64,000 nt of DNA, from NCBI GenBank assembly GCA_004799545.1, contig SSMU01000010.1, positions 62,001 through 126,000 on the forward strand, in the 5' to 3' direction. Below, piece after piece: positions 2,739 through 63,410 of the stretch. The translations under genes and the position numbers were made by a program. The first letter of the stretch is position 1. Every line of letters starts with the position of its first letter. Under the pieces are notes generated by a model. It ran no database searches. It saw only the letters and a program-made list of their open reading frames with translations, and had not been told where the DNA came from. The stretch comes from Phenylobacterium sp. (GTDB lineage: Bacteria > Pseudomonadota > Alphaproteobacteria > Caulobacterales > Caulobacteraceae).

Positions 2739-3927
2739 CGCCCGCCTGGCCCGGCTCGCCGCCCAGGCGCTGGTGTTCGCCGGCGGGGCCCTGGCGGTGC
2801 TCGCCTGGCGCGCCGGACTGCCGGCCAACGCCCTGTTGGCCGCGGTTGCGGCGCTGGCCCTGGCCGTCTGGCTGGTCAACCGGGCGATCGCCGAGGCCTC
2901 AGCGCCGGAGCCGCCGCCGGCCGAGGCCGACGCCTTGCGGCTTGACGAGGAGCGGGCGCGCCGCACCCTGCAGGCCTATCTCGACCAGGCGCCGACCCCG
3001 CTGGTCACCCTGCAGGCCGACGGCCCGCTGACCGCGGTCAACCGCGCGGCGCGCCGGCTGTTCCGCACCGACGGGGTGGTGGCCGAGGCCGCGCCGGAGC
3101 TGACCGAAGCCATCGCGGCGGCCAGCCCCGATGGCCGGCGGACCGTGCGGCTGAACGCCGGCGGCCTGCCCAGGACCTACGCCCTCTCGGTGGCCGAGGT
3201 GGTGGGGGCGGGCGGGGCGCTGCGGCTGGCGGCGCTGACCGACATCCAGGCGGAGATCCAGGCGGCCGAGGCGGCGGCGCTGAAGGAGCTGCTGCAGGTG
3301 CTCAGCCACGAGATCATGAACTCGCTCACCCCGCTGGCCTCCCTGGCCCAGAGCGCCGAGGAGCTGCTGGCCGAGGGCGGGGCGGCGAACACGCGCCTGG
3401 CCCGCGACAGCCTTGGCGTCATCGCGCGGCGGACCGCCGGCCTGCAGCGCTTCGTGACCGCCTACCGCAAGCTCGCCCGCCTGCCGGACCCGTCGCCGCG
3501 CACGGTCAGCCTGTCGGAGCTGCTGGAAGAGGCGGCGCGGCTGTTCCGCACCCGCTGGACCGGGGTGGCCCTGGAGGTCGAACCGCCCAATCCCGACGTG
3601 CGGGTCCGCCTCGATCCCGACCTCACCGCCCAGGCCCTGATCAACCTGCTGGCCAACGCCGCCGACGCCGCCCTGGCCGGTGAGCGCCCGCCGCAGGTCT
3701 GGCTGGCCGGGGTCTCGGCGGGGGAGGGGATCGCCATCACCGTGCGCGACAGCGGCGCCGGCGTGGCGGCTTCGGGCGACATCTTCCGCCCGTTTTTCAC
3801 CACCAAGCCCGAGGGCAGCGGCATCGGCCTCAGCCTCGCCCGCCAGGCCATCGTCAGCCAGGGCGGCCAGCTGGTGCTCGCGCCCCACGCCGAGGGGCAG
3901 GGCGCGACCTTCGTAATCGAGCTTTAG
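2728..3927 (+). CDS. NtrY-like sensor histidine kinase
   Basis: 399 residues. Two closely spaced membrane helices (about 12-28 and 33-50) with a very short loop mean there is almost no periplasmic sensor domain. A PAS-like segment (ARRTLQAYLDQAPTPLVTLQADGP) follows at about 77-175. The dimerisation/phosphotransfer helix carries H194 in the H-box LLQVLSHEIMNSLTPL, and the ATPase domain has the N-box LINLLANAADAAL, G1 box DSGAGV and G2 box GSGIGLSLA. It most likely phosphorylates D56 of the regulator encoded just upstream, whose gene it overlaps. The short loop suggests a signal from the membrane or cytoplasm, possibly the transport state of the neighbouring exporter; that last point is inference. 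Confidence 0.88.
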   Translation: MASSARLARLAAQALVFAGGALAVLAWRAGLPANALLAAVAALALAVWLVNRAIAEASAPEPPPAEADALRLDEERARRTLQAYLDQAPTPLVTLQADGPLTAVNRAARRLFRTDGVVAEAAPELTEAIAAASPDGRRTVRLNAGGLPRTYALSVAEVVGAGGALRLAALTDIQAEIQAAEAAALKELLQVLSHEIMNSLTPLASLAQSAEELLAEGGAANTRLARDSLGVIARRTAGLQRFVTAYRKLARLPDPSPRTVSLSELLEEAARLFRTRWTGVALEVEPPNPDVRVRLDPDLTAQALINLLANAADAALAGERPPQVWLAGVSAGEGIAITVRDSGAGVAASGDIFRPFFTTKPEGSGIGLSLARQAIVSQGGQLVLAPHAEGQGATFVIEL

Positions 3928-4343
3928 GGGCGGGGGGCGGCGGGCGCCGGCTTCCCCGGCGTGATCGTGGCCGTGATGTCGGGCTGTGGGTCGAGCTGTT
4001 CGACGTGCTTGGCGACCGCAACCGGCGCGCCTTCCTCGGTGGCCAAAGGCTTGCCCCAGGGGTTCATCCCGATGCAGGCGCCGCTGAGGTTGCCGCACTG
4101 CCGCACCTCGCCGGTCGCGCTGTCCAGGACGATGATCACCTGCTCGTCGTCGGCGGGCTTCGCCACGGCGGGATTCTGGCCCGCAGCCCGGCGCACGACC
4201 TGGGTCCACATCCGCCCCGGGCTGAAGTGGCCGATGCCCACATAGCGGCCGTGACCCGCGCCCGCGCCGCCGCTGTCCGCCGCTTTCTGACAGCCAGTGA
4301 GGGCGACCGCGACGAGCAAACCAACAAGGGGAGCCAGCTTCAT
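3924..4343 (-). CDS. Putative lipoprotein of unknown function
   Basis: 139 residues. The N-terminus MKLAPLVGLLVAVALTGC is a lipoprotein signal with the lipobox cysteine at position 18, so the mature protein should be lipid-anchored on the periplasmic side. The middle contains a short beta-rich stretch (DEQVIIVLDSATGEVRQCG) and two further cysteines in CGNLSGAC. The tail is proline- and alanine-rich. A strong GGAGG lies before the start. Its 3' end overlaps the kinase gene by four bases in convergent orientation, and its 5' end faces the SOS promoter of the sidA-like gene. I do not recognise the family. Confidence 0.7.
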   Translation of the reverse strand: MKLAPLVGLLVAVALTGCQKAADSGGAGAGHGRYVGIGHFSPGRMWTQVVRRAAGQNPAVAKPADDEQVIIVLDSATGEVRQCGNLSGACIGMNPWGKPLATEEGAPVAVAKHVEQLDPQPDITATITPGKPAPAAPRP

Positions 4344-4376: not shown

Positions 4377-4418
4377 TTGACAGTGAGAACAAAAGGCGAA
4401 TAAGAACGTTCAGGGAAC
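4377..4418 (+). promoter_or_regulatory. SOS promoter with LexA box ahead of sidA-dnaE
   Basis: A -35 element TTGACA at 4377-4382 is followed by an A/T-rich -10 candidate near 4398-4404. A LexA box of the alphaproteobacterial form GAAC-N7-GAAC occupies 4404-4418, overlapping the -10 and the likely start of transcription, where a bound repressor would block RNA polymerase. Two more GAAC words flank it (4387-4390 and 4430-4433) but not at the seven-base spacing. An identical box geometry sits on the lexA promoter in this window. Confidence 0.75.
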
Positions 4419-4440
4419 ATCCACAGCAGGAACGTCGCAC

Positions 4441-4530
4441 ATGGTTCGTCTGGCAAGAGAATCGCTGGCCTTTGTATCGGTCGCCAGCTTTGTCTGGATG
4501 ATGTGTGTCGTGGCGGTCCATCTGGGCTGA
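4441..4530 (+). CDS. sidA: SidA-like SOS-induced cell division inhibitor, 29 residues
   Basis: A 29-codon frame starting with ATG at 4441, nine bases after AGGA, and ending with TGA at 4528-4530. The peptide begins [11 protein letters not shown] and continues as one hydrophobic helix of about 20 residues (roughly 8-28) ending VAVHLG, so it should be a tiny inner-membrane protein. Caulobacter SidA is known as a 29-residue, SOS-induced membrane peptide that blocks division through FtsW/FtsN. Size, topology, the LexA box 23 bases upstream and the position in front of dnaE all match. It is far below the length limit of ordinary gene finders. The symbol is assigned from these features and memory of the family, not from an alignment. 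Confidence 0.8.
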
Positions 4531-4535
4531 TCACC

Positions 4536-7996
<3,461 letters not shown>

Positions 7997-7997
<1 letters not shown>

Positions 7998-29812: not shown

Positions 29813-30502
29813 CTAGTGGTAGCGGCGGATCAGGCCCACCAGCTTGCCCTGCACGGCCACCTGGTCGGGGCCGAAGATGCGGGTCTCATAGGCCGGGTTG
29901 GCGGCTTCGAGGGCGATCGAAGCGCCCTTCTTGCGCAGGCGCTTCAGGGTGGCTTCCTCGCCGTTCACCAGGGCCACCACGATCTCGCCGGAGCTGGCGC
30001 TGTCGGTCCGGCGGATGACCACGAAGTCGCCGTCGAGGATGCCGGCGTTGATCATCGAATCGCCCTGGATCTCCAGGACGAAATGCTCACCGGCGCCCAG
30101 CAGGCTCTCCGGCACCGGGATGCGGTCGCGCTCCTGCTGGATCGCCTCGATGGGCGTGCCGGCGGCGATCTTCCCGAGGATCGGCAAGTCGCGGCTGTCG
30201 TTGGCCGAGCCGGGCGCGTCGGCGCTGGCCTCGACCAGCTGTGGCTTGAAGGGCGCGCGGCCCTTGGGGGGCGCGGCGGCGGTCGCCTGGGAGGGCAGCT
30301 TGGTGACCTCCAGCGCCCGGGCCCGGTGCGGCAGGCGGCGCAGGAAGCCGCGCTCCTCCAACGCCGTGATCAGCCGGTGGATGCCCGACTTCGAGGCCAG
30401 GCCCAGGGCGTCCTTCATCTCATCGAAGGAGGGGGAGACGCCGGTCTCCTTGATCCGCTCGTGGATGTACATGAGCAATTCGTGCTGCTTGCGCGTCAGC
30501 AT
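29813..30502 (-). CDS. lexA: SOS repressor LexA
   Basis: 229 residues. Winged-helix DNA-binding domain at about 1-65 ([24 protein letters not shown]...), then a linker and the S24 peptidase domain. The self-cleavage site is A114-G115 in [10 protein letters not shown]; the catalytic pair is S149 (QGDSM) and K187 (EATLKRL). RecA filaments trigger cleavage after DNA damage. The gene is preceded by its own LexA box. It lies between comEC and the trp genes. Confidence 0.98.
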
Positions 30503-30564: not shown

Positions 30565-30593
30565 GTTCTCTAGGTGTTCCGCATTAATGTCAA
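30565..30593 (-). promoter_or_regulatory. lexA promoter with overlapping LexA box
   Basis: Read on the minus strand, TTGACAT (30593-30587), a 12-base spacer and CCTAGAGA (30574-30567) match the Caulobacter housekeeping promoter. A GTTC-N7-GTTC LexA box (30565-30579, given on the plus strand) covers the -10 element, which is the arrangement for autorepression. It lies 63 bases upstream of the lexA start. The plus strand of the -35 region also reads TTAA-N7-TTAC (30584-30598), one base short of a CtrA site. Confidence 0.8.
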
Positions 30594-62290: not shown

Positions 62291-62764
62291 GTGCGGCACC
62301 ACGTCTCCAAGCTCCTGCCGTTCACGCCGGACCAGCTGTTCGCCCTGGTGGGCGACGTCGCCGCCTATCCCGACTTCGTGCCGTGGATCACCGCCATGCG
62401 CACCTGGAACGCCCGCCGCCTGAGCGAAGGGATCGAGAGCGTGGACGCCGAGGCCGGGGTGGGATTCGCCTTCCTGAAGGAGCGGTTCTCGACCCGCGTG
62501 CGGCGCGACGCCCGTGCGCGGCAGATCGACGTGAGCCTGCTCTCGGGGCCGTTCCGGAAGCTGGAGAACCGCTGGCGGTTCCTGGACGCAGGCCACGGCT
62601 GCACGCGCGTCGAGTTCGACATCGATTTCGCGTTCAAATCCAGGCTGCTGGAAGCGCTGCTTACCGCGAACTTCGGCCATGCGGTGGACAGGCTGATGCA
62701 GTGCTTCGAGGCGAGGGCGAAGACCTTGTACGGGAAACTCGAGAGACCTTCCACTCCGGCTTGA
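62291..62764 (+). CDS. Coq10/RatA-type START domain protein
   Basis: 157 residues, GTG start seven bases after lipA. SRPBCC (START-like) fold: SKLLPFTPDQLFALVGDVAAYPDFVPWI and the C-terminal helix FGHAVDRLMQCFEARAKTLYG. Mitochondrial Coq10 binds ubiquinone and RatA of E. coli binds 50S subunits; which applies here is open. lipA followed by this gene is a usual alphaproteobacterial pair. Confidence 0.9.
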   Translation: MRHHVSKLLPFTPDQLFALVGDVAAYPDFVPWITAMRTWNARRLSEGIESVDAEAGVGFAFLKERFSTRVRRDARARQIDVSLLSGPFRKLENRWRFLDAGHGCTRVEFDIDFAFKSRLLEALLTANFGHAVDRLMQCFEARAKTLYGKLERPSTPA

Positions 62765-62771
62765 CTTATGA

Positions 62772-62786
62772 GAACATAGCGCGAAC
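62772..62786. promoter_or_regulatory. LexA-box-like GAAC-N7-GAAC between convergent genes
   Basis: A perfect GAAC-ATAGCGC-GAAC lies between the ends of the ratA-like and cinA genes, just after TTGACT (62761-62766). No good coding start follows on either strand. In a genome this GC-rich about one such match is expected by chance in a window of this size, so function is uncertain. Confidence 0.3.
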
Positions 62787-62820: not shown

Positions 62821-63312
62821 CTAGGTCATCCGGTCGCGGAGCGCGGTGAGGGCCGCCTGCACCGCGGCCAGCTGGATGCCTTCGCGGGTGTCGTCCTCGA
62901 AGAACTCCTCGCGGTGCATCAGGCCGTGGTTGCTTCGGGCGGTGGCGATGTGGACGGTGCCGACCGGCTTCATCGGGGTGCCGCCGCCGGGGCCGGCGAT
63001 GCCGGTGACCGCCACCGAGACGTGGGCGTTGGAGTTCTCCAGCGCGCCCTCGGCCATCATCCGCGACACCGCGTCGGAGACCGCGCCCAGGTCGGCGATC
63101 AGGTCGCCGGGGACCCCCAGCATCTCCTGCTTGGCGCGGTTGGAGTAGGTGATGAAGCCGCGTTCGAAGACGTCCGAGGCGCCCGACACCTGGCAGATGG
63201 CGCCCGCCACCAGGCCGCCGGTGCAGCTTTCAGCGGTGACGATGCGCAGCGAGCGCTCGCGGGCCTCGTCGACCAGCAGCCGGGCGAGGGTGACGATCTC
63301 CAGCGGGAACAT
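62821..63312 (-). CDS. Nicotinamide-nucleotide amidohydrolase (CinA C-terminal domain)
   Basis: 163 residues. PncC/CinA family: TAESCTGGLVAGAICQVSGASDVFERGFITYSN in two conserved blocks, then AVTGIAGPGGGTPMKPVGTVHIA and a C-terminal helix. The enzyme deamidates NMN in pyridine nucleotide recycling. Only the C-terminal domain is present, the short form. The start at 63312 (MFPLEIVTLARLL) fits the family; an in-frame ATG at 63336 is less likely. Confidence 0.93.
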   Translation of the reverse strand: MFPLEIVTLARLLVDEARERSLRIVTAESCTGGLVAGAICQVSGASDVFERGFITYSNRAKQEMLGVPGDLIADLGAVSDAVSRMMAEGALENSNAHVSVAVTGIAGPGGGTPMKPVGTVHIATARSNHGLMHREEFFEDDTREGIQLAAVQAALTALRDRMT

Positions 63313-63410
63313 GGGGACGTAACTCCTCGAGGCCACTTCAGCTCAGGCTGACCAGAGCATCGCTGGCGCCTCCGCATCAAGGCCCTTCGGACCCAGATGG
63401 CGCCGAGCGG

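Follow-up and report, generated by a model that had tools for sequence, protein, structure and literature searches.

The 64,000-nt stretch of Phenylobacterium sp. DNA analysed here (the window) carries a short gene, directly upstream of dnaE, that encodes a 29-residue single-helix membrane peptide of the SidA family. Taken as a whole, the locus is best explained as a Caulobacteraceae SidA, a division inhibitor that would be held off by LexA, released upon DNA damage and directed at FtsW/FtsN. We assign this reading a probability of roughly 0.93.

The sidA gene and its neighbours

The sidA open reading frame occupies positions 4441–4530 of the forward strand, with an ATG start and 29 codons. 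A ribosome binding site, AGGA (4428–4431, forward strand), is located 9 nt 5′ of the start codon. The hydropathy profile of the peptide peaks over residues 10–26 (17 residues, mean 2.35). The 29-codon gene with a ribosome binding site and a single-helix membrane product, proposed earlier from the letters of the DNA, is thus borne out. Pairwise comparison of 15 of the 17 same-genus sidA sequences (105 pairs) yielded 468, 408 and 1039 differences at codon positions 1, 2 and 3, respectively, and because the third position varies most, the pattern is that expected of a coding gene.

The peptide matches the curated NCBI equivalog model for SidA, NCBIfam NF033228.1, at 61.6 bits, where the cut-off is 35. 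SidA of Caulobacter crescentus is described, in the available part of PMC4211646, as an inner-membrane protein of 29 amino acids. The window peptide agrees with it in length, in the single helix, in sequence as judged by the model match, and in the presence of a LexA box. It also shares its location before dnaE with three named Caulobacter genomes (L198, L199 and L203), where dnaE directly follows the peptide too. The operators differ: the window gene has one perfect and one degenerate box, whereas these three Caulobacter loci lack an exact box. The model match, the published length and membrane nature, the LexA box and the position before dnaE together support the assignment of the peptide as a genuine SidA, and the likeness to SidA suggested in the earlier note stands. 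The same note expected automatic annotation to miss the gene. This does not apply to the window copy, because the cut-off of NF033228.1 is clearly exceeded and NCBIfam-based pipelines can find it; it does apply to relatives, since the cut-off is passed in 43 of the 398 genomes of the order.

The gene for the replicative DNA polymerase III alpha subunit, dnaE (4536–7997, forward strand), matches NF004226 with 1469.2 bits in a frame that extends over 4503–7997. Its ATG at 4536 is only 5 nt past the sidA stop codon, so the two genes are probably co-transcribed. On the other side, a small divergent gene (3924–4343, reverse strand) with a lipoprotein-like start, MKLAPLVGLLVAVALTGCQ, has no match in Pfam or NCBIfam. 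Because it shares its promoter region with sidA, the sidA operators might act on it too. The SOS repressor gene lexA (29813–30502, reverse strand; TIGR00498.1, 185.6 bits, cut-off 110.95) lies in the same window, about 25 kb from sidA. An exact LexA box at 30565–30579 (forward strand) precedes the lexA start (30502, reverse strand) by 62 nt and would allow autoregulation of lexA. Another exact box, at 62772–62786, is situated between convergent 3′ ends with no obvious target gene; it is flanked by a RatA-like gene (62291–62764, forward strand, below the model cut-off) and a PncC-domain gene (62821–63336, reverse strand).

Tandem LexA operators upstream of sidA

The LexA operator GAACGTTCAGGGAAC (4404–4418, forward strand) is an exact match to GAAC-N7-GAAC, and 22 nt separate it from the sidA ATG, which confirms the perfect LexA box previously placed just upstream of the gene. 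A LexA-like operator with one mismatch, GAACAAAAGGCGAAT (4387–4401, forward strand), precedes it as the first of a tandem pair, at a spacing of 17 bp. The box had also been described as overlapping the promoter. A possible −35 hexamer, TTGACA at 4377–4382 (forward strand), tentatively recognised from the letters, makes such an overlap plausible, although a sigma-70 promoter scan of the region before sidA returned no match.

The window contains three exact LexA boxes versus 1.04 expected. A lone box is not significant, because at least three exact boxes occur in 8 of 100 window shuffles; genome-wide, the exact pattern has 103 matches versus 40 for a reversed-pattern control. The significance of the sidA box rests instead on its conservation across 93 family loci, comprising 73 matches to the SidA model (the match L052 being left out) and 20 relatives found before dnaE. 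If one mismatch is allowed, all 93 loci have a box no more than 90 nt upstream of the start; 77 have an exact box there, compared with a mean of 0.41 and a maximum of 3 in letter shuffles. In 85 of the 93 loci, two boxes of no more than one mismatch each stand in tandem, 17 bp apart in 19 and 18 bp apart in 66; in 200 letter shuffles this spacing was found in a mean of 0.03 loci and a maximum of 1. These counts do not represent independent events, since the loci are related. Among the eight loci without the 17–18 bp tandem, the boxes are 16 bp apart in L043, L045 and L048 and 26 bp apart in L050, and L022, L065, L070 and L071 have a single box within 90 nt before the start. The tandem operator may be a conserved switch of sidA in Caulobacteraceae.

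SidA relatives and candidate relatives before dnaE in Alphaproteobacteria

NF033228 matches 73 of the 398 genomes of the order at E ≤ 0.001, all within the window's family, and among 14 control genomes it matches only Caulobacter vibrioides. Of the 74 matches in the order, 60 have an exact LexA box within 250 nt and 72 lie ahead of a same-strand dnaE, the two exceptions being L051, which keeps its peptide and box away from dnaE, and L052. A second, weak match in one genome (L052, G017:C3), 37 amino acids long and accompanied by neither a box nor dnaE, is probably spurious. Each of the 20 family genomes without a model match nevertheless encodes a relative of 28–31 amino acids before dnaE, and these score 19.3 to 62.8 bits against a profile made from other members. 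Two Caulobacteraceae peptides reach 20.5 and 17.4 bits against NF033228, below its cut-off of 35. Judged by these sequences, the SidA family is larger than the model recognises.

Elsewhere in the order, the family labelled f4 comprises the Maricaulis, Oceanicaulis and Robiginitomaculum group, which we take to be Maricaulaceae. All 16 of its sampled dnaE loci carry a single-helix reading frame of about 30 amino acids after LexA-like boxes (at most one mismatch), and the single sampled locus of family f5 likewise has a box and a single-helix reading frame. With a profile built from the 16 peptides, 120 of the 137 f4 genomes are detected at E ≤ 0.1, and 119 of these have E-values below 1e-3. Each of the 30 best-scoring f4 loci is followed by a same-strand dnaE, whose alignment begins 1.3 kb away in one case (L156), and each carries a box of no more than one mismatch, exact in 23. 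In families f2 and f3, a box-plus-peptide arrangement before dnaE was found in none of the 20 and none of the 3 loci, respectively. In two f3 loci, L112 and L113, which lack a SidA-like peptide, LexA-like boxes with one mismatch lie 63 and 70 nt ahead of the start of the dnaE match, and direct LexA control of dnaE is possible there.

Two samples extend beyond these families. The first, a named set, consists of 80 dnaE loci, of which 76 have at least 400 nt of upstream sequence; the set is not random, its loci having been ranked by similarity to the f4 DnaE. An exact GAAC-N7-GAAC is present within 500 nt in 37 of the 76, and in 36 of these 37 (all but L194) a helix-bearing reading frame of 20–60 amino acids begins 12–100 nt past the box, compared with a rate of 13.2% at random anchors in the 39 named loci without an exact box. 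Among the 36 are Parvibaculum, Tepidicaulis, the PS1 clade, Aquisalinus, Marinicaulis, Pseudolabrys and Methylopila. Four of the 39 loci lacking an exact box still carry a peptide, namely Oceanicaulis L177 and the Caulobacter loci L198, L199 and L203. The 39 also contain all 13 Rhodospirillales, Rhodospirillaceae, Magnetovibrio, Pelagibius, Telmatospirillum and Defluviicoccus records, as well as Methyloceanibacter, Hyphomicrobium and some Hyphomonadaceae and Hyphomicrobiales records. The second sample covers the class: dnaE was found in 139 of 144 genomes, the window and the family member G002 were set aside, and 88 dnaE loci were covered, leaving out 49 that are mostly the most distant. An exact GAAC-N7-GAAC occurs within 500 nt in 15 of the 88, each with a helix-bearing reading frame (15 of 15 versus 7.8% at random anchors). 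The other 73 have no exact GAAC-N7-GAAC before dnaE; in 5 only a GTTC-oriented box lies close to dnaE, with no such reading frame, and 68 have neither box orientation, peptides having been sought there only beside exact boxes. The dnaE-linked arrangement of box and peptide is patchy and not universal. Most of the peptides share a layout, in which a basic start and an acidic residue precede the helix, and occupy the same place after the LexA box.

A direct class-wide search with a profile of the Caulobacteraceae alignment retrieved 4 of 289 genomes, three within the family and one with a weak 14-residue match. Because of this outcome, the wider family rests on synteny and profile tests and not on database-level E-values, and dnaE synteny was used to locate the wider candidate relatives in place of the direct search. 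When eight peptides from outside the window's family were compared with NF033228, none matched even at E ≤ 1, and none passed a cut-off in NCBIfam or Pfam, where the weak sub-cut-off matches were to unrelated families. Profile–profile alignment by hhalign gives a graded picture. The f4 peptides and SidA give an ungapped alignment of 23 columns with a probability of 94.2, a score reached by none of 200 full and 300 layout-kept column shuffles and by 0 of 560 shuffles over all tests. The Parvibaculales-type score is reached by 0 of 60 shuffles. The Rhodobiaceae/PS1 group and a mixed class group both score above 60 of 60 shuffles, yet with a low (20.8) and a middling (76.1) probability, respectively. 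The Hyphomicrobiales result is marginal (21.4 versus 21.1 for the best shuffle), and the Aquisalinus/Marinicaulis type shows no significant similarity to SidA in this comparison, its score being reached by 15 of 60 shuffles.

In leave-one-group-out profile tests, the mean of each of the seven groups exceeded 100 of 100 layout-kept shuffles, the groups being perhaps not fully independent, and 65 of 69 peptides, taken singly, outscored 95% of the shuffles made from them (23/24, 14/16, 6/6, 5/5, 3/3, 5/5 and 9/10 by group). Left out of the group tests were L255 and L267, which have unclear starts, and L182 and L258, which are near-identical to L181 and L257. We assigned L232 to Hyphomicrobiales, L257 to Parvibaculales, L316 to PS1 and the f5 locus L114 to the Aquisalinus/Marinicaulis group, for which we presume the name Parvularculaceae; the class families pooled in the mixed group could come from orders that the named groups already represent. 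These comparisons tend to favour homology to SidA for most groups, not all.

TisB of Escherichia coli is an SOS-controlled single-helix membrane toxin. Outside Caulobacteraceae, the peptides could likewise be unrelated SOS membrane peptides, for example depolarisers resembling TisB or DinQ, that arose separately at the same place. The great shortness of the sequences, the failure of the direct class-wide search and the weak hhalign results for the Aquisalinus/Marinicaulis and Hyphomicrobiales types speak for such separate origins. We regard them as unlikely in view of the seven group means, even if group independence is incomplete, the hhalign scores of the Maricaulaceae and Parvibaculales types, which no shuffle reached, and the layout and position common to most peptides. 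Common descent is the reading that we favour, with reasonable though not high confidence: SidA would represent, in Caulobacteraceae, an old family of SOS peptides whose genes precede dnaE in several orders of the Alphaproteobacteria. An overlooked division inhibitor would then account for some dnaE entries of published LexA regulons, and in Caulobacteraceae the tandem operator would be its conserved switch. The relatives upstream of dnaE in other Alphaproteobacteria would then be homologous division inhibitors. The available portions of the open-licence literature yielded no report of SidA outside Caulobacter and none of the wider dnaE-linked distribution.

Predicted action of SidA and its meaning

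In the proposed mechanism, LexA keeps sidA off by binding to what we infer to be two operators in joint use. DNA damage would activate RecA and lead to self-cleavage of LexA, and the loss of LexA would give rise to a transcript of sidA and probably of dnaE, if the two are read jointly. The peptide would then insert in the inner membrane, bind the late divisome at FtsW/FtsN and hold the septal wall synthesis complex inactive until the damage is repaired. The close homology to C. crescentus SidA suggests that the window copy acts in the same way. For the C. crescentus protein, the accessible sections of PMC4211646, PMC12700426 and PMC13384398 describe SOS induction, interaction with FtsW/FtsN and filamentation. 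Those of PMC12700426 and PMC13384398 present sidA as a LexA-regulated early SOS gene with a strong promoter, whose deletion relieves the filamentation of a lexA mutant. A contact of SidA on TM7 of FtsW has been modelled with low confidence (PMC13396833, in part).

Because the peptide is encoded between the LexA box and dnaE, sidA would be the primary LexA target, with dnaE read along where the gap is short. That the boxes instead serve dnaE, the short reading frame serving polymerase expression as a leader peptide or coupling device, accords with the 5-nt gap in the window and, as far as the available text goes, with PMC3323433 on C. crescentus, but is most improbable given that the peptide is conserved in sequence while its codons vary mainly at the third position, that the gap to dnaE extends up to about 320 nt in some relatives, that in one genome (L051, G380) peptide and box stand away from dnaE, which is on another contig, and that plasmid-produced C. 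crescentus SidA is active (PMC4211646, in part).

Several other systems, known here from partial texts, resemble SidA in some respects. DidA of C. crescentus is likewise a small membrane inhibitor that acts on FtsW/I/N; it is set apart by description, as it is activated by DriD and independent of SOS, unlike SidA (PMC4211646). YneA, SosA, ChiZ and DivS of other phyla are likewise DNA-damage-induced membrane inhibitors of division (PMC13396833, PMC4211646), and yneA, divS, chiZ and sidA are all described as unrelated to sulA (PMC4211646). DinQ of Escherichia coli is likewise an SOS-controlled single-helix peptide, and its description with an antisense RNA sets it apart from SidA (PMC3567139).

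The window gene confirms a known checkpoint, and sidA here is one more ordinary representative of a family already known. Beyond Caulobacteraceae, the comparisons suggest that several groups of Alphaproteobacteria carry an SOS division inhibitor in a fixed place that family models miss, and this fixed place before dnaE would make a checkpoint shared by these groups directly testable. The listing of dnaE among SOS genes may in that case be due to its neighbour, and behind some of the dnaE entries in published LexA regulons of Alphaproteobacteria would stand a division-inhibitor gene that has been overlooked.
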